From Candidatus Rokuibacteriota bacterium (lineage in GTDB: Bacteria; Methylomirabilota; Methylomirabilia; Rokubacteriales; CSP1-6): DNA of 64,000 nucleotides. The number at the start of each line of letters is the position of its first letter. Position 1 is the stretch's first letter. The position numbers and the translations under genes were made by a program. The notes under the pieces are model-generated. The model was not told where the DNA came from. It saw only the letters and a list, made by a program, of their open reading frames with translations, and did not search any database. Shown here in pieces: positions 7,642 to 45,931 of the stretch. The DNA is taken from positions 1 through 64,000 of the forward strand of contig QHSP01000033.1 of NCBI GenBank assembly GCA_003220495.1, in the 5' to 3' direction.

Positions 7642-8546
7642 TGGCGGTCATGCTGCCTCGGGCCACGGTTGCCTACGAGGTGGGCGCGTCGATCGCCGGC
7701 GGCTCGCGAGCGTGGCGCCGGTTCGCGCTCAACCCCGCGGCACTCGTCGGCTCGGCGATCCTGCTCGTGATGGTGAGCGTCGCGCTGGCCGCGCCGTGGG
7801 TGGCGCCGCACGATCCGGCCAAGCAGTCGCTGCTCCGCCGGTTCACTCCGCCGATGTGGCAGACCGGTGGGAATGCGGCGTATCCACTCGGCACCGATCA
7901 GGTCGGCCGTGATGTGCTGAGCCGGATCATCCACGGCGCCCGCATCTCGCTGCTCGTCGGCGTGTCGGCCGTCCTCGTGAGCCTCGTCGTCGGCGTCTCG
8001 GCGGGTCTGGCGAGCGGATTCATGGGCGGCAAGGTCGATACCGCCATCGGCACCGTCGTGGACGTCTCGCTGTCGTTCCCGCAAATCTTGTTGGCGCTGG
8101 CGTTCGTGGCCGCGCTCGGGCCGAGCCTCGTCACCATCATCGTGGTGCTCGGCCTCACGGGCTGGGAGCGCTATGCGCGCGTCGTGCGGGCCGAGGTGCT
8201 GGCACTACGCGAGAAAGAGTTCGTCGAAGCGGCGCGGGCGATCGGCGTGGGCCGGCTGCGCATCATCGTCCGGCACGTCCTGCCCAACACGGTGTCGTCG
8301 ATCGTGGTGATGTCGACCTTGCAGGTCGCGCAGGCGATCCTGGCCGAGGCCGCGCTGTCGTTCCTCGGCGTCGGCTCCGGAAACGCCTACCCCACGTGGG
8401 GCCAGATGATCTCGCTCGGGCGCGACTTCGTAACCGTCGCCTGGTGGCTCGCCACGCTCCCGGGGCTCGCGATCTTGGTGACCGTGCTCGCGATCAACCT
8501 CGTCGGCGACCGGTTGCGCGACGCCCTGGATCCGCGGACGATCTGA
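7641..8546 (+). CDS. ABC transporter permease, DppC type
   Basis: 301 residues. The ATG at 7641 overlaps the stop of the DppB-type gene (TGATG), which decides the start over a much longer open frame. The N-terminal helix is followed by APWVAPHDP and the DppC hallmark PLGTDQVGRDVLSRIIHGAR. The EAA loop is EFVEAARAIGVGRLRIIVRH, and the late conserved LSFLGVG is present. It forms the membrane channel with the preceding protein. Its stop directly abuts the convergent amidase stop (TGATCA), leaving no room for a terminator, and no ATPase gene follows. Confidence 0.93.
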   Translation: MAVMLPRATVAYEVGASIAGGSRAWRRFALNPAALVGSAILLVMVSVALAAPWVAPHDPAKQSLLRRFTPPMWQTGGNAAYPLGTDQVGRDVLSRIIHGARISLLVGVSAVLVSLVVGVSAGLASGFMGGKVDTAIGTVVDVSLSFPQILLALAFVAALGPSLVTIIVVLGLTGWERYARVVRAEVLALREKEFVEAARAIGVGRLRIIVRHVLPNTVSSIVVMSTLQVAQAILAEAALSFLGVGSGNAYPTWGQMISLGRDFVTVAWWLATLPGLAILVTVLAINLVGDRLRDALDPRTI

Positions 8547-10199
8547 TCAGCTCTCCGGAGGACGAGCCGGGGGAAAGCTGAAGACGTTCGCGGGCTCGTG
8601 TGAGAGGTCGTGGTCGCGGCGCAGGCGCCGGACCATCCCGAGCGCGTACGGCGCGCCCTCCAGCAGCTGGGCCAGCATCAGATCGTCGAGCTGAAGCCCC
8701 GCGCGTCGCGCGGCCTTCACGCAGAGATCGCGGGTCTCGGCGTCGACGCCGTCGGCGGGCTCCGAGAGCACGGGCGGCGGCGTCACCTCGGGCGCGGCGG
8801 CGCCGGGTATCAGGCTCGGGCGCCGCGTGTGCCACTCGGTGGCACGCTCGTAGGCATGACCGACCTTCAAGATCGTCTCCTCGCCAAACGGACGACCGAC
8901 GATCTGCATGCCGAGCGGCAGGCCGTTGCCGCCGAAGCCGTTCGGCAGCGCCAGCACCGGCTGACTCGTCACGTTCCAGGCCGTGAGCAGGCTCGCCCTC
9001 TGCCAGAACGAGACGCTGCGATAGTCGCTGAGCCGCGGCGCCTCGCCCATGCCCGCGGTCACGAACGCGTCGAAGCGCGCGTAGAGCGGCTCCATCTCGA
9101 TCATCAGCCGGCGATGCTCCCGCGTGGCCTGGACGTAGTCGCTGGCGGTGAAGAGCACGGAGGGCAGCGCGCGCGAGCGAAAGTCGGCGCCGAAGTCCTT
9201 GGGCCGCGCGATCAGGTTCTTCTGATGGACGCTGAAGATCTCGCTCTCGGCGACGATGATCTTGACGTCGAAGTAGCTGGCGAGCGGCCGCACCCGGCAC
9301 TCCTCGAGCTCGGCGCCCAGCCGGCGCAAGACGTCGAGCGCCGCGTCCATCGCGCGGCGCACGTCGTCCGACGCCGGGATGTCGTCCTCCCAGTGGTGGC
9401 GCAGGACACCGATCCGGAGCCCGCGGAGATCCTCGCCGAGCGCGCGGCGATACTGTGGGATGGGCCGGCTCAGGCTGCCCGCGTCCTTCGGGTCGTAGCC
9501 GGCCAGCGCCTCCAGGGTCAGCGCGCAATCCTCGACGGTGCGAGCGAGCGGGCCGCAATGATCGAACGTGTACGAGTTGGTGATGACACCGGCGCGGCTC
9601 ACCAGGCCGAACGTCGGCATCAGCCCGACGATGCCGCAGAGCGATGCCGGGCCCCGGATCGATCCGCCCGTGTCCGAGCCGAGCGCGACCGGGACCATCC
9701 CCGCGGCGACGGCGGCGCCCGACCCCGACGACGAGCCGCCGGTGAAGCGCGTCAGGTTCCAGGGATTGCGCGCCGGAGGCCACGGCAGATCGAACGAGGG
9801 GCCGGCGTGCGCCATCTCGTGGGTCGCGAGCTTGCCGAGGAGCACGGCGCCCGCGTCGTAGAGCCGGCTCGTCGTGGTGGCGTCTTCGTCGGGAATCCGG
9901 TCGACGAAGACGCGCGAGTGGCCCGAGGTCAGGATGCCCTTCGTGTCGTAGATGTCCTTGAGCGCGAACGGGATCCCGTGCAATGGGCCACGGGTCTTGC
10001 CGCGCGCGATCTCGGTCTCGGCCGCCCTCGCCTGCCGCCGCGCCAGGTCGAACGTGGGCGTGATGAAGGCGCGCGTCTGAGCGTCGTACCGCTCGACGCG
10101 CTGGATCAACGCCTCGGTCAGCTCGAGGGGCGAAAGCTTTCGCGCTGCGATCAGTCCGGCGAGCTCGGCGATCGAGAGGTCGTGGAGTTCCGTGGCCAT
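8547..10199 (-). CDS. Amidase signature enzyme with C-terminal GatC/AtzG-like tail
   Basis: 550 residues, longer than the usual 450-500. The Ser-cisSer-Lys triad is visible: K81 (PFALKD), the GGSSSGSG cluster at 154-161 and nucleophile S180 ([10 protein letters not shown]). It should hydrolyse amides in the cytoplasm, as GatA, AtzE and indoleacetamide hydrolases do. About residues 485-550 form an added helical segment ([15 protein letters not shown] ... [10 protein letters not shown]). This resembles the free-standing GatC/AtzG (DUF4089) partner subunits, so the enzyme may be a natural fusion of catalytic and chaperone subunits. A GGGAGAA site precedes the ATG. Confidence 0.88.
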
Positions 10200-16198: not shown

Positions 16199-17164
16199 AT
16201 GCGTCGTCGACCAAAAGCTTCCTTCGTCAAGCGCGCCCCGGCACGACCCGCCGCTCATCATGCGGCCGGCAACGGCGCCGGCGACCCCGCCTGGATGTGG
16301 GACGAGCCGCGCTGGCGGGCGGCCGTGAACAGGGTGCGCGCGGGCCGCTCGCTCAAGCCCCCGTGCTGGAAGAACGGCGCACGGGTGGGCGTGGCCCTGT
16401 CGTTCGACTCCGACCACGAGACGAGCACGTTGCGCGAGGGCTCGACCTCGCCGGGCCGTCTGGCCCAGGGCGAGTACGGCGCACGCGTCGGTGTCCCGCG
16501 CATCCTGGACTTGCTACGCCGCCACGACCTCCGCGCCTCGTTCTTCGTGCCGGGCGTGATCGCGCGCCTGCACCCGGACGAGCAGCGCCGCGTGGTCGCC
16601 GAGGGCCACGAGGTCGGCATGCACGGCTGGATCCACGAAGGCACCAGCGAGCTCACCGAGTCGTCGGAGCGAGACCTCATGCGGCGGGCCTTCGACACCC
16701 TGACGAAGGTCACCGGCCGGCCGCCGGTCGGGGTGCGCGTGCCGTCGTGGGACTTCAGCGCGACCACCTTGCCGCTGATCCGCGAGCTGGGTCTGCTCTA
16801 CGACTCATCGCTCATGGCCGACGACGAGCCCTACGAGCTCCTCGATGACGGCGAGCCCACCGGGATCGTGGAGCTCCCGGTCGAGTGGATCAAGGACGAC
16901 GCGCCGTATCTCAACATGAACCGCGCCACCGCCATTCGCCCGTACACCGCGCCGTCCGCGGTGCATGAGATCTTTCGAGCCGAGTTCGAGGGGGCGCTGG
17001 CCGAAGGCGGGCTCTTCCTGCTCACGATGCATCCGCACATCATCGGGCACCGCTCACGGATCGCGATGCTCGATGAGCTGATTCGCTACATGAAGGGCGT
17101 GCCCGGGGTCTGGTTCGCCACGCACGAAGAACTCGCCCGCTACTGCAAGGCCGCTGCGTCGTGA
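16199..17164 (+). CDS. Polysaccharide deacetylase (NodB-like) family protein
   Basis: 321 residues. The NodB metal site is visible: D70-S-D72-H73-E74 (LSFDSDHE) and H142/H146 (GMHGWIHEG). The later segment PPVGVRVPSWDFS and the MHPHIIGHRSR segment match the peptidoglycan deacetylase / PuuE allantoinase-like branch. No signal peptide is seen; the first 30 residues are basic and low-complexity. The likely reaction is removal of acetyl or another acyl group from an amide in the cytoplasm. A promoter and an AGGAGGA site lie directly upstream. A propeller gene follows in the same direction. Confidence 0.88.
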   Translation: MRRRPKASFVKRAPARPAAHHAAGNGAGDPAWMWDEPRWRAAVNRVRAGRSLKPPCWKNGARVGVALSFDSDHETSTLREGSTSPGRLAQGEYGARVGVPRILDLLRRHDLRASFFVPGVIARLHPDEQRRVVAEGHEVGMHGWIHEGTSELTESSERDLMRRAFDTLTKVTGRPPVGVRVPSWDFSATTLPLIRELGLLYDSSLMADDEPYELLDDGEPTGIVELPVEWIKDDAPYLNMNRATAIRPYTAPSAVHEIFRAEFEGALAEGGLFLLTMHPHIIGHRSRIAMLDELIRYMKGVPGVWFATHEELARYCKAAAS

Positions 17165-17225
17165 GGCGGCGCCGAGGGCAAGACCATTGCCCACGCCGGT
17201 GCCTTCGTGTAGTGGTGTTTTCACC

Positions 17226-18185
17226 ATGGACTACAACATCGTTCTCGGAACCGCCGGGTGGGGCGTGTGGCACAGTCCAGACGCGGGCAAGTCGTGGCTT
17301 CGCCATCGAAAGCCTTTCCCGCTGAACAGCCGGATCCAGGCGCTGGCCGTGGTCCCGGGCGAGCCCCGCGGGCTCGTGGCCGCCGGAGACACCGGCGTGT
17401 TCCGGAGCCGGGACGGCGGCGCATCCTGGTCGCGGGTCGGCGCCGCCGGAGACCTGCCGACGGTCTGGGCGCTGGCCGTGGATCCGGGCGATCCCCAGAC
17501 GCTCTTCGCGGGCACGCGGCCGGCCGCGATCTATCGCTCGCGCGACGGCGGAGCGACCTGGAAGCGGCTCGACGTCGCCATCGCGACCGAGTGCTCCATC
17601 GGGACGCCGTTCGTAACCCGCGTGCTCGTCGACCCCGCCGACCGGACGGTGTGGGCCGGCGTCGAGATCGACGGCGTCTTTCGCAGCCGTGACGGCGGCG
17701 ACACGTGGACGAAGGTCGTCCACGGCCTTCACGATCTCGACGTCCACGACATGGCCCTCGCGCCCACCACACCGCCTCGCGTCTACACGAGCACGAACGG
17801 CGAGCTGTTCTGGAGCGACGATCGCGGTGAGACGTGGACACCGATCGGCGTGAAGACGCTCTGGCCACTCCCCTACGCTCGCGGCATCGCGGTGAAGAGC
17901 GACGAGCCGCGCGTGCTGTTCGCCGGGTGCGGTCAGACGACCACCGGAGAGACCGGCGGCGTCCTCCGCTCGAACGACGGCGGGCAGAGCTGGCGAAGCC
18001 TTCCCCTGCCCACCCGGCCCAACGCCACCATGTGGGGCCTCGCCACCCACCCCGCCGACGCCGGACGTATCGTCGCGTTCAGCCTGTTCGGCGAGGTCTA
18101 CGTGAGCGAGGACGCCGGGGAGTCGTGGCGCAAGATCGCGCGCGAGTTCGGAGAAGTCCGCTCCGCGGCCTGGGTACCGGAGTGA
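17226..18185 (+). CDS. Asp-box (BNR/sortilin-type) seven-bladed propeller protein
   Basis: 319 residues. Seven Asp-boxes (S.D.G..W) occur at regular spacing: SPDAGKSW, SRDGGASW, SRDGGATW, SRDGGDTW, SDDRGETW, SNDGGQSW and SEDAGESW, each ending one blade. Such YCF48/sortilin-like propellers serve as glycosidase-type or protein-binding scaffolds. No signal peptide follows the ATG at 17226; a TTG at 17187 would add 13 residues but not an export signal. It lies 61 bp after the deacetylase and 16 bp before a lactonase-type propeller. Confidence 0.85.
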   Translation: MDYNIVLGTAGWGVWHSPDAGKSWLRHRKPFPLNSRIQALAVVPGEPRGLVAAGDTGVFRSRDGGASWSRVGAAGDLPTVWALAVDPGDPQTLFAGTRPAAIYRSRDGGATWKRLDVAIATECSIGTPFVTRVLVDPADRTVWAGVEIDGVFRSRDGGDTWTKVVHGLHDLDVHDMALAPTTPPRVYTSTNGELFWSDDRGETWTPIGVKTLWPLPYARGIAVKSDEPRVLFAGCGQTTTGETGGVLRSNDGGQSWRSLPLPTRPNATMWGLATHPADAGRIVAFSLFGEVYVSEDAGESWRKIAREFGEVRSAAWVPE

Positions 18186-18201: not shown

Positions 18202-19317
18202 ATGCGTGGAGCACATCGTGTCGCGATCTGGGCTCGGATGGCCGTCGTCGCCGCGCTGGTCGTGGGCGCACTGATGGCCTCGCCGGTCGGCGCCGCCACC
18301 TTCGTCTATGTCGGCAACGCCGAGAGCAACGAGGTCTACGTGCTCCAGCTCAACCAGCAGAACGGCGACCTCACGGTCCTCGACAAGACGGCGATCCCGG
18401 GCATCGAGAAGCCGGGCATCTCGACGCCGATGTCGGTGAGCCCCGATCGCCGCGTCCTCTACGTCGGCACGCGCGGCGAGCCGAAGGTCGCGGCCGGCTT
18501 CGCGATCGATCCTTCGACCGGCAAGCTGCAGTACATCGCGAGCGGTCCGCTCGCCGACAGCCTGGCCTACATCGCCGTCGACCGGACGGGCCGCTTCCTG
18601 CTGGGCGCGTCGTATCCGGGTCACCGGGTCACGGTGAATCCGATCGGAGCGCCGGGCAAGGTGCTGCCGCCGCAGCAGGTGCTGGAGAACTATCCCAACG
18701 CGCACTCGATCTTCGCCGACGCGTCGAATCGCTTCGTGCTGGTGCCGACCCTGGGCAACGACCGCATCAACCAGTTCGCGTTCGACGCGACGACGGGCAA
18801 GCTGACGCCCACCGCATCGCCAGCGGCAGAGACGCGGCCGAAGGCCGGCCCTCGCCATTTCGTCTACCATCCGGGCGGCAAGCTCGTGTACGTCATCGGC
18901 GAGCTCGACGGCGCGGTCTACGTCTTCGACTACGACGCCGCGACCGGAGACCTCAAGCAGAAGCAGATCGTCAGCGCGCTGCCGACCGACTTCCAGGGCA
19001 AGCCCTCGGCTGCCGACCTCCACATCACACCCAACGGCAAGTTCCTCTACGGCTCGGAGCGCACGACCAGTACCCTGGCCGGCTTCCAGGTCGACGCGGG
19101 CAAAGGCACCCTGACCGCGATCGGCAGCGTGCCGACCGAGAAGCAACCGCGCGGCTTCGGGATCGATCCGTCGGGGCGCTATCTGCTCGCGGTCGGCCAG
19201 CTCTCGCACGGCCTGTCGAGCTACTCGATCGATCAGTCGAGCGGCAAGCTGACGAAGCTCAAGGAGTATCCGATGGGCAAGAATCCGAACTGGGTCGAGA
19301 TCATCGACCTTCCGTGA
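18202..19317 (+). CDS. Exported lactonase-family beta-propeller
   Basis: 371 residues with a signal peptide (hydrophobic residues 12-30, ending VGAA). The mature domain repeats the 7-bladed lactonase pattern (FVYVGN..SNEVYVLQL, VSPDRRVLYVGTRG, DRTGRFLLGASY, ITPNGKFLYGSERTT, FGIDPSGRYLLAVG). This is the family of cytoplasmic 6-phosphogluconolactonase YbhE and of exported propellers. The signal peptide argues against a pentose-phosphate role and for periplasmic lactone hydrolysis. GGAGGA precedes the ATG. Confidence 0.88.
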   Translation: MRGAHRVAIWARMAVVAALVVGALMASPVGAATFVYVGNAESNEVYVLQLNQQNGDLTVLDKTAIPGIEKPGISTPMSVSPDRRVLYVGTRGEPKVAAGFAIDPSTGKLQYIASGPLADSLAYIAVDRTGRFLLGASYPGHRVTVNPIGAPGKVLPPQQVLENYPNAHSIFADASNRFVLVPTLGNDRINQFAFDATTGKLTPTASPAAETRPKAGPRHFVYHPGGKLVYVIGELDGAVYVFDYDAATGDLKQKQIVSALPTDFQGKPSAADLHITPNGKFLYGSERTTSTLAGFQVDAGKGTLTAIGSVPTEKQPRGFGIDPSGRYLLAVGQLSHGLSSYSIDQSSGKLTKLKEYPMGKNPNWVEIIDLP

Positions 19318-19330
19318 AGGGGACCGGACG

Positions 19331-19588
19331 ATGGCGAGGCTCGAGCCGCTGAGCATCGACGCAGTCGACGACGAGACGTCCGATCTCCTGAGCCCGCGCG
19401 AGCGGGCCGCCATCCGGTTCGCCGAGAAGCTCGCCGTCGACCACCACAAGGTCGACGACGCGCTCTGGTCCGAGCTGCGCGCGCACTTCTCGGAGGCCGA
19501 GATCGTCGAGCTGGTCGCCCACGCGACGCTCTACATCGGCTTCGGCCGGTTCAACGAGATCGTGGGCGTGGACCCGGCCTCGCGGTGA
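19331..19588 (+). pseudogene. AhpD/carboxymuconolactone-decarboxylase-like fragment lacking its CxxC core
   Basis: 85 residues. The first 20 (MARLEPLSID) match the usual start of this family. From residue 21 on (LSPRERAAIRFAEKLA..HHKVDDALW, HFSEAEIVELVAHATLY) it matches the C-terminal half. The middle of about 80-100 residues that carries the CxxC/His peroxidase site is absent, so the reading frame looks like the product of an in-frame internal deletion. It could be a translated but inactive remnant. It overlaps the next tiny frame by GTGA. Confidence 0.6.
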
Positions 19589-19683
19589 GCGCGGAGCCAC
19601 TCGCCTGCCTGAGACTGCGGCTGGCCGAGGGCCGGCCGACCCTCGGATATCTCGTCACGACGCCGAGCGCCCAGATCGTGTAA
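19585..19683 (+). pseudogene. Truncated N-terminal remnant of an HpcH/HpaI aldolase
   Basis: 32 codons from GTG (19585-19587, overlapping the preceding TGA) to TAA at 19681-19683. The peptide LRLRLAEGRPTLGYLVTTPS is the characteristic N-terminus of HpcH/HpaI aldolases (L..RL..G.PTLG....PS). It stops where the barrel should continue and runs straight into the ribosome site of the LLM gene. It looks like a gene whose remaining 220 or so codons were deleted. A functional micropeptide is less likely. Confidence 0.55.
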
Positions 19684-19692
19684 GGAGCCCGC

Positions 19693-20766
19693 ATGCAGTT
19701 CGGCCTGTTCATGATGCCGCTCCACCCGCCCCATCGCGCGTTCGCCGACGGCTACGACCGCGACGTCGCGCAGATCGTGCTGGCCGATCAGCTCGGCTTC
19801 CGCGAGGTCTGGGTGGGCGAGCACCTCACGGAGCGCTGGGAAAACGCGCCGGCCCCCGATCTGCTGCTCGCCCAGGCGCTGACGTTGACGAAGACCGTGA
19901 GGCTCGGGACCGGCGTGACCTTGCTGGCTCTGCACAATCCGGTCTACCTCGCGCACCGGCTGGCCATGCTCGACCACATGGCCCGTGGCCGGTTTCAATG
20001 GGGCATCGGCGGCGGCGGCATCCCAACGGACCTCTCGCTGTTCGGTCTGGAGGCGTCGACGGTTCGTGCCCGCTCGGCCGAGGTGCTCGACGTCGTGCTC
20101 AAGCTCTGGGCATCCGACGGCCGGTTCACGTACCGGGGAAAGTTCTTCGACATCGACACGCCCGTGCTCGATCCGGTGAAGGGCCGCGGCTACTACATGA
20201 AGCCCTACCAGCAGCCGCATCCGCCGATCGCGGTGGCGGCCAGCACCCCGAGCTCGAGCTCGATGCGCATGGCCGGCGAGCGCGGGTGGATCCCGATGTC
20301 GAGCTCGCTTCTCTCCCGGGCGTTCCTCGCCGACCACTGGCGACTGGTCGAGGCCGGCGCGGCGGCCGCCGGACGCCCCGCGAATCGGAGCGACTGGCGC
20401 ATCGCGCGCGACATCCTGGTCGCGCCCACGTCTGCGATGGCGCGCGAGCGCGCGCGGGCCGTGCTCGGACGGAACTACGTGCAGCATCAGTACCCCAATC
20501 GCATCGGCACGGCGCAGATGGCGTCGACCAAGCTCGAGCCGTCCATGGCCGACGAGGCGGTGACGGTCGACTATCTGATGGAGAACCTCTGGATCGTCGG
20601 CGACCCCTCCGAGTGCGCCGACAAGATCCGGCAGATCCACGAGGAGAGCGGGGGCTTCGGCGCGCTCCTCACGATCACGACGGATTCGGACGATGCCGGG
20701 TGGGACCACGAGAGCCTGCGCCTCCTGATGGAGGACGTCGCGCCGCGGGTCGCCGACCTGAGATAG
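19693..20766 (+). CDS. LLM-class flavin-dependent oxidoreductase
   Basis: 357 residues, preceded by AAGGAG. It starts MQFGLFMMPLHPPHR with DGYDRDVAQI..ADQLGFREVWVGEH, the alkanal-monooxygenase-like signature, then TVRLGTGVTLLALHNPVYLA. LDHMARGRFQWGIGGGGIP is the flavin/F420-binding strand-loop. The length and the MKPYQQPHPPIAVAAST segment resemble group enzymes acting on long-chain or ring substrates. It is first of four close rightward genes (VOC, small barrel protein, cupin), which may form a ring-oxidation set. Confidence 0.92.
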   Translation: MQFGLFMMPLHPPHRAFADGYDRDVAQIVLADQLGFREVWVGEHLTERWENAPAPDLLLAQALTLTKTVRLGTGVTLLALHNPVYLAHRLAMLDHMARGRFQWGIGGGGIPTDLSLFGLEASTVRARSAEVLDVVLKLWASDGRFTYRGKFFDIDTPVLDPVKGRGYYMKPYQQPHPPIAVAASTPSSSSMRMAGERGWIPMSSSLLSRAFLADHWRLVEAGAAAAGRPANRSDWRIARDILVAPTSAMARERARAVLGRNYVQHQYPNRIGTAQMASTKLEPSMADEAVTVDYLMENLWIVGDPSECADKIRQIHEESGGFGALLTITTDSDDAGWDHESLRLLMEDVAPRVADLR

Positions 20767-20775: not shown

Positions 20776-21159
20776 ATGGCCTACCGTTACGACCACATGC
20801 ACCTGCGCACTCGAGACGTGAAGAAGACCGCCGAGTACTATCGGCGCGTGTTCGGCGCCAAGATCGTCGAGTCGATCCAGTCCGACGGCAAGCCGCGGAC
20901 CGATCTCGACCTGGACGGGCTAACGATCTTCATCGCGCCCGTCGCGCCCGAGGCCACCATCCCGTCCGCCCCGACGGAGCCCTACATCGGCCTGGATCAC
21001 TTCGGGCTGCGCGTCGACGACATGGACGAGGCCGTCGCCGAGCTCAAGCGCCGTGGCGCCACCTTCAAGATGGAGCCGCGCATTATCCGTCCCGGCGTCA
21101 AGATCGCCTTCATCGAGGCGCCCGACAACGTACGGATCGAGCTGCTCGAGCGCACCTAG
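20776..21159 (+). CDS. VOC (glyoxalase/bleomycin-resistance/dioxygenase) superfamily protein
   Basis: 127 residues with paired beta-alpha-beta-beta-beta units: YRYDHMHLRTRDVKKTAEYY at the start and IGLDHFGLRVDDMDEAV in the second half. Metal ligands would be H7 or H9, the second-half His in LDHFGL and E at IEAPDNVRIELLE. Members are glyoxalases, extradiol dioxygenases or epimerases. Start ATG 20776 follows AGGAG. It is 9 bp after the LLM enzyme and so probably handles its product. Confidence 0.88.
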   Translation: MAYRYDHMHLRTRDVKKTAEYYRRVFGAKIVESIQSDGKPRTDLDLDGLTIFIAPVAPEATIPSAPTEPYIGLDHFGLRVDDMDEAVAELKRRGATFKMEPRIIRPGVKIAFIEAPDNVRIELLERT

Positions 21160-23469: not shown

Positions 23470-23497
23470 ACTATACTCGGTTTGCGATAGGCCTCAA
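23470..23497 (-). promoter_or_regulatory. Promoter of the MFS gene, placed for a leaderless transcript
   Basis: On the minus strand TTGAGG (23497-23492), 16-bp spacer, TATAGT (23475-23470). The ATG at 23464 begins 5 bp after the -10, at the expected transcription start. Confidence 0.5.
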
Positions 23498-23640
23498 GTC
23501 TGGCGGAATCTTCCGGGTCCGAGGTTGAAGATCGCGGCAGATCGCGGCACCGGACGCAACCCAAGCGCAGCCCACTCAGCGTCACGCCACGGCGGCCCGG
23601 GCCGTGCTCGTCCCCCAAGAAGTCAGAGCGACGAGTCCTC

Positions 23641-24360
23641 TCAGGCAAGCCAATCAGCCAGCTCCGTCAAGGTCCGAAACTCCCGATCCGGCCGGGCGGC
23701 CCCGGTCGGCGGCTCGCTCTTCCGGTTGATCCAGGCGACAGGGATCTTCTGCGCGACCGCTGGCGTCACGTCGTGAAAGTAGCTCTGTGCGGCGTGGAGC
23801 CAGCGTCGGCCGCCGACCCGCTCCCGCGCCGTAGTGAAGTGACCTGGAGCCGGCTTGTAGGAGCGGACCTGCTGCGCGGTAACGAGCAATGAGAAGCTCA
23901 CCGCCAGATGCTGTCTCGTTCCCGCCAGGAGATCATCGTCCACATTCGATAGGATGCCAAGGGCATAGCCGGCTTGACTCAGCCGCGTGAGGGCCTCGTT
24001 GGTGTCAGGGAAGGGCTTCCATCGAGGCAGGCTCTCCGGCAGGAAGGTCGCCCGCTCTCGGCTGATCGCCCAGCCGAAGCGTTCCCCAACCCGCACCGCC
24101 GCATCCGTAAGGAGCTCGCGGTAGTTTCGGTACTCGGCCGCTTGGGCCTCGGGCTCCTTCTCGAACAGAGCCCGCAGAGAGGCCGCAGGGTCCAGGCCGA
24201 CACCATCGGCGGCCGCGGCCTCCCGGAAGGCGTCGATAATGCCTGCCTCCCAGTCGATGAGGGTGCCATAGCAGTCGAAGGTGATGACGTCGAAGGGGCG
24301 GGTCACTTCAGACAGTAACCGCCGCGAGGCGACAGGTTCTTTGGCAGCGCAGGCCATCAT
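23641..24360 (-). CDS. Haloacid dehalogenase-like (type II) HAD hydrolase
   Basis: 239 residues. HAD motif I is FDCYGTLIDW with nucleophile D29; motif II is ILSNVDDD; motif III Lys is in SYKPAPGHF; a late HDVTPAVAQKIPVAWINR replaces motif IV. The FD(A/C)YGTL start and the length match (S)-2-haloacid dehalogenase type II and close phosphatases. Whether the substrate is a halo-acid or a phosphate cannot be decided. A doubled ATG (24360 and 24357) makes the exact start uncertain. No clear ribosome site is seen. Confidence 0.85.
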   Translation of the reverse strand: MMACAAKEPVASRRLLSEVTRPFDVITFDCYGTLIDWEAGIIDAFREAAAADGVGLDPAASLRALFEKEPEAQAAEYRNYRELLTDAAVRVGERFGWAISRERATFLPESLPRWKPFPDTNEALTRLSQAGYALGILSNVDDDLLAGTRQHLAVSFSLLVTAQQVRSYKPAPGHFTTARERVGGRRWLHAAQSYFHDVTPAVAQKIPVAWINRKSEPPTGAARPDREFRTLTELADWLA

Positions 24361-24409
24361 CGCGACGGATTGGTTCACCCTCAGTGTTGATCGCCACCGC
24401 GTGCCGGCT

Positions 24410-27400
24410 CTAGTCGCGGAGGAGTTCGCGTCGCGCGTGCGCCCGGACGAGCGGCCCGGCGCGCTCGAACGAAGTCCGAAGCGCCGGATCGCTGAGGCTG
24501 GCGGCCACCGCCTCCAGCGTCCGCAGCGCCTCCTCGGCCTCCGCGCGAGACTCGGAGCGCCGCCCGGCGCGCTCGAGCACTTCTGATAGCGAAAGCGTGG
24601 CGCGCCAGTGAGGCGGGGCGGCCGCGACCGTGAGCGCAATGGCTTTGGCGTCACGCAGCGCTCCGATGGCGGCCTCCACCTCGCCGAGCGAGGCCAGCGC
24701 CTCACCCTCGACGCGGCGGCATTCCGCGACCTGGACGGGCCACTGCGTGATATACGCCGCCGCCGCGCGCGCGGCCGCGAGGGCGCGCGCGGCCTCGCCG
24801 ACGCGGAGGGACAGCTCGGCTTCGAGTAACATCGGGCGCAGCGCGAACTTCCGAGCGCCCCCGGCCGATCGGATCGCCGCGGCGACGTGCTCCGAGGCTT
24901 TGGCGATCTCGCCGGCCGCCACGAGGTCCTCGGCGAGCCCGCTATGCGCGTCGGCGATCCACAGCGCGGTGCCGAGCTTCACCGCGATGTCAAGCATCTC
25001 TCCGTGCAGATCGCGTGCGCGGCCGACGTCGCCGCAGGCGAGGGCGGTGCGGCCCAGCACCGCCAGCGCGAGCGCCGTCCACTCGCGGTGGTCGATCTCA
25101 CGCGCGATCGTCAAGCAGGCGGTTGCCTCCCGCTGGGCCAGGTCGAGGGCGCCCAGGGGCATGGCCGATTCGGCGGCGATGACGTGCGCGTAAGCTTCGC
25201 CGCCGGGAGCATCGATCGCCGTGAAGATCTCGAGCGCGCGGCGCAGCGAGGGCTCCCCGGCCCGCCAGCCGGCGCGATACGTCTGGACGGCGCCCAGGGT
25301 CAGGAGCGCCGAGGCCTCGGTGGGCCGATCGCCGAGGTCGCGCAGGCGATGGGCCGCGTCCTCGGCATACCGAATGCTCGCCTCGACGTCGACGACCAGC
25401 CACGCGTTCATCGCGAGCATCTCGAGGGTGCGCGCCTGACCGAGCTCGTCGCCCAGCGCGGCCAGCAACTGCAACGCCTGCTCGAGCTCGCGCCGGCCTT
25501 CGTCCACCTGCGCGAGGTTCAGCTGCATGATGCCCAGGCCCGCCCGCGCCTCGGCCAGCGCGCGGTGATCGCCGGTGTCCTCGATCACCGCGACCGCCTG
25601 TCGGGTCAACGCGAGACCGCGCGCGTAGTCCTTGTGGCCGCCCCACAACGCACCGAGCGCGGCGAGGAGTCGGCCGCGCGTCAAGGCATCGCCGGCCGCC
25701 TCGGCCAGCGCCAGCGCGGCGTCGAGGTCGGCGCGGGCAGCCTCGAAGGCACCGAGCGTGGAGTGCACGTCGGCGCGGGCCTCGAGCAGCGCCGAGCGCT
25801 CCGGTCCAGGCGTCCCGGCGCGCTCGCTGGCCGCCATCGCCTGGTCGTAGAGCGCGAGGGCCTCGCGGTTGGCGTGGGCACGACGTGCGGCCGCCGCGGC
25901 GAGGCGCGCGTAGCGCGCGGCGTCGGGCCATGCCGCGGCCTCGTAGTAGTGGTGCGCGAGCACGGGCGCCAGCTCGTCCGCGCGCTCGCGCTCCCGCCGG
26001 CGCAGGGCCTCGGCCGCGCGCCGATGCAGCTCGTGGCGGCGCGCCGCGATAAGGGTGGCGCGCGCGACCTCCTGCGTGAGCGCGTGCTTGAAGACGTAGA
26101 CGGGCTCCTCGGCGTCCGTCTTGGCGTAGACGAACTCCAGACGCGCAAGCTCGGCCAGTGGCGCGCCGAGCGGCCCTGGCTCCTCGCTGATCGCCTCCAG
26201 GAGCGCGACCGGGAACTCGCGTCCGAGGATCGAGGCCGTCTGCAGCACGCGCTTGGGCGTCTCGGGCAGCCGGTCGATGCGCGCCGTCAGCACGCCGTGC
26301 ACCGTGTCGGGGACGGCGATCGCCTCGGGGCCGCCGGCGTGATCGGCGACCACGCGAGCCAGCTCTTCGAGGAAGAACGGGTTGCCTTCAGCCCGGTCGA
26401 GGATACGCCGGGCAAGCGGGTCCGCAGGCTGCACCCGGGGGGCGATGGCGCTGACGATGGCCAGGCTCGCCTGCGGTCCCAGGGGCCGCAGGGCGAGCTG
26501 CGTCACGTACGAGCGTTCGCTCCAGGGCGGGCGGTACCCTGGACGGTAGGTCGCGAGCAGCATCACGGGCGCCGCCGCGATGCGTTCGACGAGAGCGCCC
26601 AGAAAGGCCTCCGAGGTCTGGTCGATCCAGTGCAGGTCCTCGACGAGGAGGACGAGGGGCTGGCGCCGGCTCGATCGCACCAGGAGCTCGAGCAGCGTGT
26701 CGAACGTGCGCGCCATCAGCGCCCCGGACTCGAGGGCCGCGAGCCGCTCGTCCGTCGCCTTGATCCCGAGCAGGTGGACGAGATACGGAGCGCGATTGGC
26801 AGCGTCCATGCCCACGGCCGCGAGCGTAGCGCCGAGCCGCGTGAGCACTTGCTCGGGCGTATCAGTGTCCGCGATACCGCTGACCGAGCGCAGCAGGTCG
26901 AGGACCGGGACGTACGGGATCGCGCTACCGTACGACAGGCAGCGGCCCTCGAATCGCGTGATCCCGCGCTCGCCGAGCGCACGGGCGAACTCGAAGACGA
27001 GGCGCGACTTGCCGGTGCCGGGCTCCCCGACCACCGATGTCGCGTGGCCGCGACCCGCCTCCACCTCGGACAGCAGATCGGTCAACGTGCGCAGCTCACG
27101 CTCGCGGCCCACGAAGAGACTCGAGCTGCGACCGGGCGCCGCCGGGCCGACGCGCCGAGTGCCCCGTCCGGTGAGCTCGTGGACGACGAGGGGCTCCGTC
27201 CGGCCCCGGATCGGAGTCGGGCCCCGCGAGTGGAGCCGCACTTCTTCGCCCACCAGGCGCGCGGTCGCGTCGCTGAGCAAGATACGACCGGGCTCGGCCA
27301 GCTGCTGTAGACGAGCCGCGAGATGGGTGACGTCGCCGACCGCGGTGTAGTCCATCCGGAGGTTGTCGCCGATGGCACCCACGACCACGAAGCCGGTATG

Positions 27401-27973
27401 CAGTCCCATCCGGAGGGTCAGGTGTACATCGCCGCCGGTCGACACGGCCATCGCGTGCGACTCGATCGCGCTTCGGATGTCGAGCGCGGCCAGTACCGCC
27501 CGGCGCGCGTGGTCCTCGTGCGCGATCGGCGCGCCGAACAGCGCCATGAAACCGTCGCCCAGGAACTGATTGACAGTGCCCTCGTAGCGATGGACCTCAG
27601 CCAGCGCGCGGTCGAAGAAGCGGCTCAGCAGCGCGTGCATTTCGTCGGGGCCGAGCTGCTCGGCGAGCGCCGTCGAACTGACGACGTCGCAGAACAGCAC
27701 GGTCACCGGCTTGCGCTCGCCTTGCAGGGTGCTGCGCGACGTGAGGATCTTTTCGGCGAGATGCCGGGGCGTATAGGCTTCCGGCGCGGCGGCTCGGTTC
27801 GCCGTCTCGACCGCCTGGCCGCAGGCCGGACAGAATCTCGCCCGCTCCGACAGGTCGGCGCCGCACGCCGCACAGCGTGAGCCCATCGGCGCGCCGCAGG
27901 CGGCGCAGAAGCGGGCGCCGAGCGGGGCGATTTCCTGGCAGCGTGGGCACGCGCGGCCGGCGGGCTCGGCCAT
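24410..27973 (-). CDS. Zinc-ribbon / class III cyclase-like / AAA ATPase / TPR regulator
   Basis: 1187 residues. Residues 9-52 hold four CxxC zinc-ribbon pairs. Residues 85-265 are a class III nucleotide cyclase domain with metal Asp D96 (FCDVVSST) and D140 (LGDGFMALFG) and catalytic R221. The transition-state Asn of the usual VNLAARL is His217 (VTHLAARL), so activity is uncertain. A P-loop GEPGTGKS at 316-323 and Walker B LVLLVEDLHW define a STAND-like AAA ATPase. From about 640 to the end are TPR-like helical repeats. Such proteins couple nucleotide signalling to protein interaction. A TGGGATAAT sequence ends 7 bp before the ATG, indicating a leaderless start. Confidence 0.9.
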   Translation of the reverse strand: MAEPAGRACPRCQEIAPLGARFCAACGAPMGSRCAACGADLSERARFCPACGQAVETANRAAAPEAYTPRHLAEKILTSRSTLQGERKPVTVLFCDVVSSTALAEQLGPDEMHALLSRFFDRALAEVHRYEGTVNQFLGDGFMALFGAPIAHEDHARRAVLAALDIRSAIESHAMAVSTGGDVHLTLRMGLHTGFVVVGAIGDNLRMDYTAVGDVTHLAARLQQLAEPGRILLSDATARLVGEEVRLHSRGPTPIRGRTEPLVVHELTGRGTRRVGPAAPGRSSSLFVGRERELRTLTDLLSEVEAGRGHATSVVGEPGTGKSRLVFEFARALGERGITRFEGRCLSYGSAIPYVPVLDLLRSVSGIADTDTPEQVLTRLGATLAAVGMDAANRAPYLVHLLGIKATDERLAALESGALMARTFDTLLELLVRSSRRQPLVLLVEDLHWIDQTSEAFLGALVERIAAAPVMLLATYRPGYRPPWSERSYVTQLALRPLGPQASLAIVSAIAPRVQPADPLARRILDRAEGNPFFLEELARVVADHAGGPEAIAVPDTVHGVLTARIDRLPETPKRVLQTASILGREFPVALLEAISEEPGPLGAPLAELARLEFVYAKTDAEEPVYVFKHALTQEVARATLIAARRHELHRRAAEALRRRERERADELAPVLAHHYYEAAAWPDAARYARLAAAAARRAHANREALALYDQAMAASERAGTPGPERSALLEARADVHSTLGAFEAARADLDAALALAEAAGDALTRGRLLAALGALWGGHKDYARGLALTRQAVAVIEDTGDHRALAEARAGLGIMQLNLAQVDEGRRELEQALQLLAALGDELGQARTLEMLAMNAWLVVDVEASIRYAEDAAHRLRDLGDRPTEASALLTLGAVQTYRAGWRAGEPSLRRALEIFTAIDAPGGEAYAHVIAAESAMPLGALDLAQREATACLTIAREIDHREWTALALAVLGRTALACGDVGRARDLHGEMLDIAVKLGTALWIADAHSGLAEDLVAAGEIAKASEHVAAAIRSAGGARKFALRPMLLEAELSLRVGEAARALAAARAAAAYITQWPVQVAECRRVEGEALASLGEVEAAIGALRDAKAIALTVAAAPPHWRATLSLSEVLERAGRRSESRAEAEEALRTLEAVAASLSDPALRTSFERAGPLVRAHARRELLRD

Positions 27974-28418
27974 GCGCTGGATTATCCCACTGCGGTCAGT
28001 TTCGGCCGTGGCTGTCCTACCTCACCGCGTCCATTTCTGATCGCTGGCCTTCGGCCCGGCCGGAGCCTTCGGCGCCGACTTCGCCATCGAACATTTCGCC
28101 CCGCGACCGTGAACGACGCGGAGTTAGCCGACGCGCTCGTCTGATAGACTCAGGCTGCAATCAGCGTGCAATGAAATCGCGTATTTTTGAATTCTGCAAG
28201 TTCGATCGTGTCCCGTCGGGGAATCACCCGCAAGGGCGAACGCCCGGGCGGTGAACGCGGCGTGGCGTCGCGTGCTCGCTCGGGCCCACGTCCGCTACCG
28301 AATCCGGAGCAGCTGAGGCACACGCTCGCCAGCGTGCTCCTCTCGCGCAACGCCCCCCTACTCGACGTGCCGCGGGTGGGCGGCTGCGGGTAGGCTAGGC
28401 AAAGGGAGAGTCCTTGAC
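27974..28418. other. 445-bp intergenic region without a supported gene
   Basis: The region separates two divergent genes. It contains a relatively AT-rich patch (about 28168-28205) inside GC-rich flanks and a short plus-strand open frame (28187-28393) of low-complexity Arg/Gly/Pro composition with no recognisable family. I see no tRNA or convincing hairpin. It probably carries the promoter for the aldo/keto reductase, but no clear -35/-10 pair stands out. Confidence 0.4.
27981..27989 (-). promoter_or_regulatory. Extended -10 promoter of the cyclase/AAA gene (leaderless arrangement)
   Basis: Minus-strand TGGGATAAT (27989-27981) fits an extended -10 (TGn + GATAAT). The ATG at 27973 is 7 bp further on, and no ribosome site intervenes. 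Confidence 0.45.
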
Positions 28419-29387
28419 ATGTTGATGCGACGGTTAGGTCGGACCGGGCTGCGGGTGTCCGGGCTATGTCTCGGCGGCAACACGTTCGGCTGGACCACTG
28501 ACCAGAAAGCCTCGGAGGCGGTACTCGACGCCTACGTCGAGGCCGGTGGCAACTTCATCGACACGGCGGATGTGTATTCACGCTGGGTGCCCGGCCACAA
28601 AGGCGGAGAGTCCGAGGAAGTCCTCGGCACGTGGATGAAGACGCGTGGCACTCGTCGCGCCGTCATCATCGCCACCAAGGTGATGGGGCCGATGGGGTCC
28701 GGCCCGAACGACACCGGGCTCTCACGCCAGCACATCGTCGAGGGCGTCGAGGACTCGCTGCGGCGGCTGCAGACCGACTTCATCGATCTCTATCAGGCGC
28801 ACTGGGACGACCGCGACACGCCGCTCGAGGAGACGTTGCGCGCGTTCGACGATCTGATCCGCCAGGGCAAGGTGCGCTACATCGGCGCCTCGAACTACCA
28901 CGCGTGGCGCCTGACGCGCGCGCTCTGGGAGAGCGACCGGCGCGCCTACGCGCGTTACGAGTCGATCCAGCCGAAATACAACCTCGTCTTCCGCGACGAG
29001 TACGAGCGCGAGCTCGAGCCGCTCTGTCTCGAGCAGTCGATCGGCGTCATCCCCTACTCATCGCTCGGCAGCGGCTTTCTCTCCGGCAAGTACCATCGCG
29101 GCCGCGATCTGCCGAAGACCGCGCGCGCCGGCAACGTGCAGAAGGTCTACATGACCGACCGCGGCTTCACGGTGCTGGAGGCGGTCGAGAAGGTCGCGGC
29201 GGCCGCGGGCGCGACTCCGGCGCAAGTCGCGCTGTCGTGGCTCGCCCATCGGCCCGGCATTACCGCGCCGATCGCCAGCGCCACCTCGGTGACGCAGCTC
29301 AAAGAGCTGCTCGGTGGGATCGAGCTCCAGCTCGACTCGGATGCGCGCGCAGCGCTCGATCGCGCGAGCGCCTGGCTGGAAAGCTAG
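28419..29387 (+). CDS. Aldo/keto reductase
   Basis: 322 residues of the NADPH-dependent AKR TIM barrel. The catalytic tetrad is D48 and Y53 (FIDTADVYS), the Lys in IIATKVMGP and the His in YQAHWDD. C-terminal cofactor segments are GVIPYSSLGSGFLSGKY and the IASATSVTQL loop, as in YghZ/Tas-like enzymes. It should reduce a carbonyl or oxidise an alcohol. The GGGAGAG site precedes the ATG at 28419; a second in-frame ATG is two codons later. It is convergent with the MoaD/xanthine-dehydrogenase operon. Confidence 0.92.
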   Translation: MLMRRLGRTGLRVSGLCLGGNTFGWTTDQKASEAVLDAYVEAGGNFIDTADVYSRWVPGHKGGESEEVLGTWMKTRGTRRAVIIATKVMGPMGSGPNDTGLSRQHIVEGVEDSLRRLQTDFIDLYQAHWDDRDTPLEETLRAFDDLIRQGKVRYIGASNYHAWRLTRALWESDRRAYARYESIQPKYNLVFRDEYERELEPLCLEQSIGVIPYSSLGSGFLSGKYHRGRDLPKTARAGNVQKVYMTDRGFTVLEAVEKVAAAAGATPAQVALSWLAHRPGITAPIASATSVTQLKELLGGIELQLDSDARAALDRASAWLES

Positions 29388-40819: not shown

Positions 40820-41620
40820 CTACGGTTTCCGGTACGTCACGCGCCACACCTCGAGGCCGTAGGGCCCGCGGCCCTGATCGTCGCCGGGACGAAGCAGCGC
40901 CACCAGGCTCGCCGGGACGGAGATCGACATCGCCTTGTAGAACGGCGCATCGCCCTGGAATACCGGATAGGCGCGGCCGCTCGCGACGTGGAGGATGCGG
41001 ACGCCGCGGTCGTGCATGTCCGGCGCGAAGAGCCATTCGCCGTCCTGGCTGAAGGCGAGCGACCGGCGCATCTCGGCGTGCATGCCGTGGCCCGGCGCCT
41101 CCGGCGTGTTCCACCACGTGCACCCGGCCCAGGAGACCGTTCGCCGCGGCGCGCGTACCCTGGCGCCCCAAGGTGAGCGAGACCGGCGCCATCGCCTCGA
41201 GTGACTTCGACATCGTCAGCGACGTGCGCAGCGTGAGCGCCGGCCAAGTCCGCACCTTGAGGGAGCCCTGGTCCGAGACGGTCACCAAGAGCTGCCCGTC
41301 CGAGGCAAACGCCGCGCCGTCGATGCGCTCCCCCGCGTGGGCGTTCGGAAGCGTGCGCGTGATCTGGCCGCGCTCCGCGTCGACCACGTAGAGGCTCGCG
41401 CCTGCCCCGACGACCAGAGTCGGCTCGGTCGGGTGGAACGCGGCCGCGCGGCTGTCGCGGACGTCGAGCACCGCGACCTGACGACCGGTCAACACCTGCC
41501 ACAGCTCGAGCGTGCGCGCTTCGTGCGCGGTCGCGGCCAGCAGCGAGCCGTCGGCCGAGAAGACCAGCCCCGTCGACTCGGCGAGCCGCCACGCGCCCTC
41601 TCCATCGCTCGGTTCCGGAC
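40820..41620 (-). pseudogene. Broken WD40-repeat propeller gene
   Basis: From about 41620 one minus frame encodes WD40-type blades (LVFSADGSLLAATAHEARTL, VRDSRAAAFHPTEPTLVVGA, GAAFASDGQLLVTVSDQGS). The protein then continues in another frame from about 41100 (RRSLAFSQDGEWLFAPDMHD to the stop at 40820). A single-base indel in a GCCGGGCC run near 41100-41106 separates them. No start codon exists in the first frame and the N-terminus is missing. Two defects suggest a real pseudogene rather than one sequencing error. Upstream it abuts an equally broken plus-strand gene. Confidence 0.6.
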
Positions 41621-41633
41621 GGCAGCTCGCTAC

Positions 41634-42145
41634 TTGCTGGGCCTCGCCATTGCCGCGGCGGTGCTGGCGGCTCTCTTCATGGTCGTTCGGCGAGCGCCCC
41701 GGCGGTCGAGCTTCGGGCCGATCGATATCGTGCCGATCGCCGGCCTGGCCGCCGCGCTCACCCTGGCCGTGATCTGGCTCGGCGGAGGCGACACGCAGCT
41801 CCGGCCTTGCCGCCTCGGCAACGACCTGGCCTGCGCGAAGATCGCGACCCGGCTGATCGAGACCGCGGAGCACGCGCCCTCGGCGCCGCCACGCCTTGGG
41901 AGGCGCGCGCTGCGCGCGTGCTCGACGCCGATCTCTGCCCGGCGGCCGCGTCGGGTCTCTGCGGCGCGAGGCGCTACGCCGTCGGCTCCGTCGCGCTGCG
42001 CGCCGGCCGGGTCGACGCCGCGAAACTCGCGTTCCGCCAGGCCTGCGACTTCGAGCCGGGATGGTGCGCGCGCGCCGCCAAGGAACAGGCGGTGCCGTGG
42101 ACACCGGCCGAGCGAGATCGGCTGGAGCGCCGCGCGCGGCCCTGA
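41634..42145 (+). pseudogene. Frameshifted membrane-anchored protein with possible Sel1/TPR-like tail
   Basis: One plus frame encodes two hydrophobic helices (LLGLAIAAAVLAALFMVV and IVPIAGLAAALTLAVIWLGG) followed by CRLGNDLACAKIATRLIET. Another frame continues from about 41885 with WEARAARVLDADLCPAAASG and AVGSVALRAGRVDAAKLAFR to TGA at 42145. A one- or two-base indel near 41880-41895 divides them. Only a TTG (41634) could serve as start. The repeated C....C and A..L.A.R pattern suggests a Sel1/TPR-like tail. It lies head to head with the broken WD40 gene. Confidence 0.45.
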
Positions 42146-42160
42146 CGGCGAGACGGGGCG

Positions 42161-43063
42161 TTACTCGCCCTTGAGGCGCGGATCGAGCAGGTCGCGCAGG
42201 GCGTCGCCGACCAGATTGAACGCGAGGACGGCCACCATGATCGCGAGCCCCGAGAACGTCGTGATCCACGGGCAGCACTTGATGTACTGGCGACCCTCGC
42301 TGAGGATGTTCCCCCAGCTCGGCGTGGGCGGCGGGATCCCGAGCCCGAGGAACGACAGGCCGGCCTCGGTGCGAATGGCGGTGGCGATGTAGAGGGTGGC
42401 CACGACGACGAGCGCGTAGACGGTGTTCGGGAACACGTGGCGGGCCATCACGCGGAGCTGCCCGCCGCCGAGCGCGCGCGCGGCCAGGATGTAGTCCTGC
42501 TCGCGGATCGTGAGGGCCAGGCTCCGCGCCAGCCGAAGGAAGTTCGGCGTCAACGCCACGCCGATCGCGAGGATCTCGTTCAGCAAGGTGCCGCCCAGCG
42601 CCGTGACGATGATCAGCGCCAGCAGCAGGGTGGGAAACGCCATCAGCATGTCGGCGCACCGCATGATGGCCGTCTCCACGCGCCCGCCGCGCACACCGGC
42701 CACGATGCCGAGCGGCACCCCCAGCACGAACGCGAAGAGCACCGAGGCGAGGCCGACCTCGAGCGAGACGCGCGCGCCCCAGATGATCCGGCTCAGGATG
42801 TCCCGTCCGAACTCGTCCGTCCCGAGGAGATGTCGCTCGATCGCCCCCGGCCCCTTGAGCACCGAGTCGGAGAACTGGGCCGACGGGCTCAGCGGCGCGA
42901 TGAGGGGCGCGGCCGCGGCCACCACGATCATGATGACGGCCATCGCGAGCCCGATCCCGATGGGCAGCCATCGGCGCAGCCGCCCGCGGCTCGCGGCGCG
43001 CGACCCTTCCCCTGCTCCCGGAAGGAGCAGATCGACCGGATCGGCTCGGCGAACGAGCGCCAT
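42161..43063 (-). CDS. ABC transporter permease, DppC type
   Basis: 300 residues from ATG 43063. First helix, then APLIAPLSP and the DppC hallmark HLLGTDEFGRDILSRIIWGA, the EAA loop AARALGGGQLRVMARHVFPN and LSFLGLG..PPTPSWGN. It pairs with the DppB-type permease 13 bp upstream. No ATPase gene is adjacent; the next sequence to the left is pseudogene material, so if an ATPase gene was once here it has been lost. Confidence 0.93.
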   Translation of the reverse strand: MALVRRADPVDLLLPGAGEGSRAASRGRLRRWLPIGIGLAMAVIMIVVAAAAPLIAPLSPSAQFSDSVLKGPGAIERHLLGTDEFGRDILSRIIWGARVSLEVGLASVLFAFVLGVPLGIVAGVRGGRVETAIMRCADMLMAFPTLLLALIIVTALGGTLLNEILAIGVALTPNFLRLARSLALTIREQDYILAARALGGGQLRVMARHVFPNTVYALVVVATLYIATAIRTEAGLSFLGLGIPPPTPSWGNILSEGRQYIKCCPWITTFSGLAIMVAVLAFNLVGDALRDLLDPRLKGE

Positions 43064-43076
43064 GTCGCTCCCCCGC

Positions 43077-44081
<1,005 letters not shown>

Positions 44082-44102
44082 GGCGCTCTGCGCCTGGCCC
44101 GC

Positions 44103-45704: not shown

Positions 45705-45733
45705 AGATCTCTCCTCTTTCGCTGAGCGAGCAG

Positions 45734-45886
45734 TTACCCCTTCTTCGCCGTCTTCTGATCCCAGCACGTCGAATGGTAGGTCACGTGCTCGACCGCCCTC
45801 GTGCAGGCGTCGATCTGCTGGACTGTCCACTTGCGGTCGGTGGACAGGACCGGCCTGGAGCACTCGGCGCACAGAGGGTCAGCCAC
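45734..45886 (-). CDS. Small cysteine-rich (zinc-knuckle-like) protein
   Basis: 50 residues from GTG 45886 to TAA at 45734, read in a frame different from the SBP extension. MADPLCAECSRPVLSTDRKW gives a CxxC, followed by Cys in IDACTRA and Cys in HSTCWDQ, with two His nearby (EHVTYHSTC). This is enough for one zinc site. No family is recognised. Upstream TGCGATACT ends 6 bp before the GTG, so the mRNA may be leaderless. The SBP gene follows 29 bp later and may share the transcript. Confidence 0.6.
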   Translation of the reverse strand: MADPLCAECSRPVLSTDRKWTVQQIDACTRAVEHVTYHSTCWDQKTAKKG

Positions 45887-45892
45887 GGGGGG

Positions 45893-45901
45893 AGTATCGC
45901 A
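45893..45901 (-). promoter_or_regulatory. Extended -10 promoter before the small cysteine-rich gene
   Basis: Minus-strand TGCGATACT (45901-45893): TGn followed by GATACT. The GTG start lies 6 bp downstream with no ribosome site between. Confidence 0.4.
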
Positions 45902-45931
45902 CGGCCGGCCGGGTCCGCGGACGCCGCAGCC

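Follow-up and report, generated by a model that had tools for sequence, protein, structure and literature searches.

Probable loss of a predicted AhpD-like selenoprotein gene by a repeat-associated deletion, next to a truncated aldolase gene, in a Candidatus Rokuibacteriota genome

Results

Two gene remnants between an intact lactonase and an intact monooxygenase gene

The stretch of DNA analyzed here (the window, 64,000 nucleotides) is contig C55 of a draft genome of 6.0 Mb in 159 contigs (referred to as G000). Two short adjacent reading frames in it lie between genes for a lactonase and a luciferase-like monooxygenase (LLM). The first of these is, very probably, what is left of a CMD/AhpD-family selenoprotein gene lost by a deletion between repeats, and the second is the beginning of a truncated aldolase gene, while the genome kept the selenocysteine (Sec) trait. 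The original prediction, made from the window alone, had recognized both frames, and its coordinates for them, along with the GTGA by which they overlap, were right (Table 1). The product name of the upstream gene used for placing the locus is one that we take to be YCF48-like.

Table 1. Features of the locus in the window
Feature	Position	Strand	Basis
YCF48-like repeat protein gene	17187..18185	+	ORF; upstream neighbor, used for placing the locus in relatives
7-bladed beta-propeller lactonase gene, intact	18202..19317	+	PF10282, 273.9 bits
Remnant of a predicted AhpD/CMD-family selenoprotein gene, 85 aa	19331..19588	+	Relatives with 267 bp more; PF02627, 16 bits
CMD deletion junction, one copy of TCGACGACGAGA	19365..19376	+	Found twice at 267-bp spacing in G007 and G008
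GTGA overlap (stop TGA, next start GTG)	19585..19588	+	Sequence
5′ remnant of an HpcH/HpaI-type aldolase gene, 32 aa, GTG start	19585..19683	+	Comparison with the G003 gene
TAAGGAG, stop of the remnant joined with the LLM ribosome site; right-hand border of the aldolase deletion	19681..19687	+	
Luciferase-like monooxygenase (LLM) gene, intact	19693..20766	+	PF00296, 180 bits
Glyoxalase/VOC-family gene, intact, next in cluster	20776..21159	+	PF00903, 50.7 bits

The missing segment of the CMD frame

When a full-length CMD gene was used as query against 99 genomes, 18 close members were obtained besides the short form of the window. The member in G007 appeared in two pieces in the search listing, and 17 of the 18 were read base by base. 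All 17 orthologs contained the segment that is missing from the window. Compared with them, the window frame has lost 89 of 172 residues (267 bp), corresponding to ortholog residues 14–102 approximately, and with these the CxxC/CxxU motif at 77–80. The view that the frame had lost its middle, active site included, without a change of frame was thus borne out. The retained parts had been given as the first 20 and the last 65 residues; the longer orthologs correct this to about the first 14 and the last 69–71. Aligned with six orthologs, the window protein shows two extra residues at its C-terminal end. The G001 ortholog, with its TGA read as Cys, is a member of PF02627 (64.3 bits; cut-off 23), and the window frame falls below that cut-off.

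The exact junction of the window was seen in 1 of 57 family genomes, in a search that allowed no mismatches and that an altered junction would escape. Nine related loci were listed, and the six of these that were read, all from Rokubacteria, were full-length; the nine also include L120 and L121, actinobacterial loci of 43–49% identity outside the six. The existence of a conserved family of short 85-residue proteins, named in the original prediction as a finding that would speak against a deletion, was rejected on these grounds.

A predicted selenocysteine codon and hairpin in the intact orthologs

An in-frame TGA was found at codon 80 in all 17 orthologs, at the second Cys position of CxxC and after an N-x-C-x-Y stretch. 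The 18th close member, in G030, also has TGA there, and solved homologs have Cys at the aligned position. The UGA is followed after 13 nucleotides by a hairpin, AUGCCGG-GGC-CCGGCAU, with a 7-bp stem and a GGC loop, which was exact in 14 of the 17. The intact orthologs therefore carry what characterizes a bacterial SECIS element: a hairpin with a G in a small apical loop, soon after the UGA.

Codons 85–90, behind the TGA, are nearly fixed in the orthologs beyond amino-acid need. Tyr85 was TAT in 16 of 16 rows, as against 3 TAT and 41 TAC among the 44 elsewhere in these genes; His90 was CAT in each of the 14 His rows (of 16 rows), as against 14 CAT and 71 CAC among 85 elsewhere. These counts omit L078, the G007 gene with a frame change.

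Pairing of the stem was further assessed on an alignment of 27 paralog stretches (26 distinct). The alignment was taken from 32 loci. Left out were L140 (the window), L147 and L172, in which the script did not detect the motif (SAY-stop in the case of L172), as well as L151 and L171, whose spacing differs. Paired bases occupied 84.6% of the cells, a value reached by none of 500 shuffles, and 23.6–42.3% when the stem was slid along the alignment. The covariation score of 0.242 was higher than in all 500 shuffles. Two of the five hairpin measures failed against the shuffles, as 75 of 500 had at least as many pairs with both partners changed (4), and 399 of 500 at least as many further pair types. 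RNAalifold gave for the same alignment a consensus stem of three pairs only. Four hairpins folded singly had z values of −2.70, −2.04, −1.55, and +0.46, one of the four being no better than shuffles.

Because all 17 orthologs combine TGA at the second Cys position with a constrained SECIS-like hairpin, the ancestor of the window gene is predicted to have been an AhpD-like selenoprotein with a CxxU motif, in which Sec would be inserted at the UGA as presumed for the orthologs. The UGA, the SECIS-like hairpin, and the active-site helix went together in the window deletion. That the lost segment contained a predicted Sec codon and SECIS hairpin had been missed by the original prediction.

Direct repeats and the in-frame deletion

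The 12-bp sequence TCGACGACGAGA occurs twice in the CMD genes of G007 and G008, 267 bp apart and in one frame, coding for VDDE and IDDE, and no longer direct repeat exists in the gene of either genome. At the 267-bp spacing the repeat measures 12 bp in G007 and G008, 11 bp in G015, and 9–10 bp in G026, G033, and G043. Since it is only 3–7 bp in the other 11 of the 17 orthologs, congeners G001, G002, and G004 included, the presence of all 12 bp in the actual ancestor of the window is something that we infer. The CMD deletion has the form of a deletion between short direct repeats, with a repeat at both ends and one copy left. When the codons of the G008 gene were shuffled, 20 of 300 versions contained a repeat of at least 12 bp somewhere, so that the repeat by itself is unremarkable; what deserves attention is the coincidence of the breakpoint with the longest repeat. 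Slippage or recombination between the copies would be the simplest cause of the CMD deletion.

Forty window genes, picked by length and a GC3 rule, contained 176 direct repeats of at least 10 bp lying no more than 1 kb apart. The copies were in one frame for 140 of them, compared with a fraction of 0.38 in a Markov control. As most long intragenic repeats are in frame, a clean in-frame outcome is expected without selection, and the in-frame deletion was rejected as a sign of selection.

Between the window and G006, 20 length differences of at least 60 bp are spread over the 64 kb. Hence the locus is not exceptional, and a special deletion hot spot was rejected. At 14 window/G006 junctions no clear repeat was seen, 13 having matches of 4–7 bp and one a match of 9 bp (with 20-bp slack). 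It may be noted that two stretches of about 6 kb in the window (23482–29352 and 41110–47335) are absent at the syntenic place in G006.

The aldolase remnant

The second frame had been read as the N-terminus of an HpcH/HpaI aldolase. It matches the start of the intact G003 aldolase (72% over its residues 5–33), which agrees with that reading. The G003 protein has 259 aa, is encoded at the corresponding place, flanked by the lactonase and LLM genes, and scored 119.4 bits for PF03328 (cut-off 25). The 32-aa frame of the window gave no Pfam match, that to PF03328 included, and its homology rests on the comparison with G003. With the G003 gene as reference, the aldolase deletion amounts to ~688 bp (791 − 97 − 6), old stop included; as this is no multiple of three, the deletion is not in frame. 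A new TAA arose at its edge. The frame had been said to end just before the LLM ribosome site, which gives the position correctly, except that the TAA does not precede the site but is fused with it in TAAGGAG. No repeat was shown at the aldolase junction.

The locus in congeners

The close relatives of the window genome are Candidatus Rokuibacteriota MAGs, presumably from soil, as judged by the sample names. The YCF48-like gene adjoins the locus in G001, G003, G004, G006, G007, and G008, and partly in G002. In G001, the CMD and LLM genes are open and the lactonase gene is cut. In G008, the CMD gene is open, only the last codons of the lactonase gene are left, and the LLM gene is broken by an N run. 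G003 has lactonase, aldolase, and LLM genes and no CMD gene at the locus; the GTG of its aldolase overlaps the lactonase stop, as that of the window aldolase overlaps the CMD stop. G006 has neither CMD nor aldolase gene, and its lactonase gene is without the first half. G002, G004, and G007 have the lactonase followed by the CMD gene, with LLM located elsewhere. The locus was not found in G005 (eight congeners searched). No close CMD copy was found elsewhere in G003 or G006 either (best E 4.2e-21 and 3.6e-21).

Copies of the LLM gene with 85–94% identity over nearly the full length were present in five of the eight congeners searched (G001, G002, G003, G006, and G007) and partial ones in G004 and G008; G005 had no close copy. 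Two further observations concern single genes. The G001 lactonase (L069, ~8490–8630) has an internal deletion of ~0.94 kb that kept the frame and spared the start region together with the final 17 residues. The G007 CMD gene (L078, 6533–7046) has a frame change near codon 129, possibly a further inactivation or a sequence error.

Since relatives have an intact CMD gene beside the lactonase, and G003 an intact aldolase gene before LLM, erosion of the locus by deletion is supported. The expected order CMD–aldolase–LLM was recovered as pairs (CMD–LLM in G001 and G008, aldolase–LLM in G003), and in no relative read at this locus were the three intact together. As for operon erosion by clean in-frame deletions, the erosion stands, and so does the frame of the CMD deletion. 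The aldolase deletion does not conform, and the lactonase deletions of the sister genomes are mixed, with the frame kept in G001 and the start lost in G006 and G008.

In a tree of the YCF48 gene from seven genomes, midpoint-rooted for drawing only, G000 grouped with G006 (99/95), and these two with G003 stood apart from the other four (97/95). A tree of the LLM gene from twelve genomes was weak, with one of nine inner branches well supported, and had G003 with others (89/95, short of the mark). By the YCF48 tree, the nearest relative of G000 is probably G006, the gene having been lost in each by different deletions; the place of G003 differs between the two trees. Upstream, at window positions 17154–17186, G003, G007, and G008 have ~0.9–1.1 kb more between two genes, which is missing in the window. 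A minus-strand frame in the G008 insert has what we take, from its HHxFDH motif, to be a metallo-beta-lactamase-like look.

Sec machinery and other CMD genes

The window genome contains genes for SelB (356.6 bits, cut-off 242.25), tRNA-Sec (69.8, cut-off 47), and SelA (591.3, cut-off 267.9; searched in this genome only). They are clustered at G000:C152:29930–34658. SelB exceeded the cut-off in 56 of 59 genomes, this one included, and in 2 of 14 controls; the corresponding figures for tRNA-Sec were 51 of 59 and 5 of 14. The genome also has two other CMD genes with one in-frame TGA each, one on C99 (C-x-x-stop) and one on C88 (with Ser replacing the first Cys). As the machinery and these two genes remain, one selenoprotein gene would have been lost and not the Sec trait. 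Loss of the Sec trait as the cause was rejected, SelA, SelB, and tRNA-Sec being present.

Among the CMD/AhpD matches listed from the 99 genomes searched (more matches exist), 141 of 150 had an in-frame TGA, and the C-x-x-stop motif was confirmed by script at 28 of 30 loci and at one of two further loci of the window genome. This family of Rokubacteria seems to have undergone a strong expansion of AhpD-type selenoproteins. An HpcH/HpaI-type aldolase match beside a CMD match was seen at G029:C206, G030:C234, G033:C258, G059:C269, G031:C52, and G000:C63, four of these CMD matches having the TGA and two not. Because the two are adjacent on the same strand at six places, the CMD–aldolase pair may be a functional unit.

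Age and structure of the remnant

The dN/dS of the remnant was 0.16–0.21 against four congeners and 0.10–0.41 against nine more distant rows. These values resemble those of intact pairs, the median over 78 pairs being 0.1985 (G007, G034, G010, and G023 omitted). In 69 codons of 14 rows, one silent and no amino-acid-changing difference was private to the remnant. Relaxed selection was therefore not seen. Such a lack of decay means that the event was recent, that the frame was kept, or that it is an assembly variant; a recent CMD deletion is what we infer.

The AlphaFold2 model of the G001 ortholog had a mean pLDDT of 70.9, with blocks within residues 61–150 at 77–92. It resembles solved AhpD structures, although a single one, 7xw1, matched at E ≤ 0.001 (E 3.3e-4; TM-score by query, 0.54). 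In this model, the lost residues 14–102 span most of the first helix and five more, among them helix 78–90 with the predicted Sec, and the C-terminal helices are those retained in the remnant. With the helix of the predicted Sec and most of the N-terminal helices gone, the remnant would be very unlikely to have a redox function like that of AhpD.

Discussion

The course of events that we favor would be as follows. A Rokubacteria-type ancestor would have had a CxxU AhpD/CMD gene and an HpcH/HpaI-type aldolase gene between lactonase and LLM. Slippage or recombination between the TCGACGACGAGA copies (VDDE and IDDE) would have taken out 267 bp with the UGA, the SECIS hairpin, and the CxxU helix, leaving an open frame of 85 codons presumably incapable of a redox enzyme role. 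A second deletion of ~0.7 kb would have cut the aldolase to its first ~31 codons and created a stop codon within the LLM ribosome site. The overlap into the next frame is kept, and the lactonase, LLM, and VOC genes are open.

Could the full-length genes really be present, and the short path be an assembly or binning artefact, i.e. a collapse or a minor strain variant? The draft state of the assembly in 159 contigs, a remnant without decay, and sister assemblies that show several different deletions at this very locus would fit such an artefact. It would nevertheless have to account for two separate breakpoints, in a genome where indels also occur elsewhere (the 20 length differences against G006). 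Repeats of 12 bp are far below the usual assembly k-mer length, and a collapse over TCGACGACGAGA is unlikely for this reason. On balance we regard the artefact as improbable. The 85-residue frame might, on the other hand, encode a small protein that has been kept, in which the helical C-terminal half of the AhpD fold plays a non-catalytic role such as oligomerization or regulation. Its start, its two-residue extension, its dN/dS like that of intact genes, and the C-terminal helices that remain are what such a protein would show. Yet the exact junction is confined to one of the 57 family genomes, the six related Rokubacteria loci are all full-length, most N-terminal helices (residues ~14–102) are lost, and G003 and G006 do without a copy at the locus or a close one elsewhere, which makes retention very unlikely.

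It is also conceivable, though we give it little weight, that the loss was favored. A UGA-containing gene heading a coupled string would lower LLM expression at scarce selenium, and the deletion would make run-through to LLM independent of selenium. The GTGA and the TAAGGAG do couple the frames without a break between 19331 and the start of LLM, and the CMD gene is gone from the locus in G003 and G006 too. However, in-frame deletions are expected without selection, and the window genome kept its two other TGA-containing CMD genes. That a selected deletion freed LLM from a selenium-dependent UGA, the VDDE/IDDE repeats offering a ready-made, in-frame escape from dependence on Sec, is accordingly a doubtful proposal. 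If it were true and applied generally, a single step would suffice to lose a Sec gene whose UGA and SECIS lie between in-frame repeats, and annotation would take the leftover open frames for normal small genes.

Loss of the CMD gene by deletion between repeats, with truncation of the aldolase, thus remains the reading that we hold very probable. It would offer, in a single genome, a view of one selenoprotein gene lost with Sec decoding kept. One step between short repeats could remove the UGA, the SECIS, and the active site and leave a normal-looking frame, and remnants of this kind can go unnoticed among small ‘CMD-like’ genes. Clean in-frame deletions in these high-GC genes follow from codon-periodic repeats and must not be taken for selection. 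The locus further suggests that AhpD-type selenoproteins are densely represented in Rokubacteria.

AhpD-like selenoproteins with CxxU are described in the passages on these proteins in PMC13188914 (as TIGR01926) and PMC1088965 (as COG2128, reported there as new). As far as those passages go, the family, the CxxU, and a hairpin behind the UGA whose small apical loop contains G are the same here, and the window copy differs in being without motif, UGA, and hairpin. Judged by title, none of the few open-access papers that turned up for Rokubacteria with selenoproteins, selenocysteine, or AhpD deals with this subject. The G001 ortholog scored 58.3 for TIGR01926, below the cut-off of 81.8. The best-scoring named family was NF053654, GroundWater_YciW (‘YciW-related (seleno)protein’), with 84.6 bits for the G001 ortholog and 31.9 for the remnant; its cut-off is 310 bits, so the ortholog is not a member. 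The domain model TIGR00778 was the only NCBIfam model whose cut-off was reached (32.2 vs 27.8). AhpD-type proteins of Pseudomonas aeruginosa provide the closest solved structures, both by sequence (2o4d and 2ijc, PA0269; E ~4e-14 to 5e-14) and by fold (7xw1), and they have Cys where the window orthologs have the predicted Sec. The G003 gene belongs to the HpcH/HpaI aldolase family (PF03328); of such an aldolase, the window frame has 32 residues left.

No prior report of a selenoprotein gene caught broken like this one was found in the open-access literature, searched mostly by title. The event is of a known kind in a known kind of protein, and represents ordinary erosion in an indel-rich genome. 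Losses of single selenoproteins with Sec decoding kept are reported in the relevant section of PMC1794560, which, by comparing sister genomes, infers 38 events across 12 families and also shows remnant SECIS-like structures in Cys homologs. The losses in that section were deduced from absence or from a Sec-to-Cys change, whereas at the present locus the broken gene and its junction are both visible.
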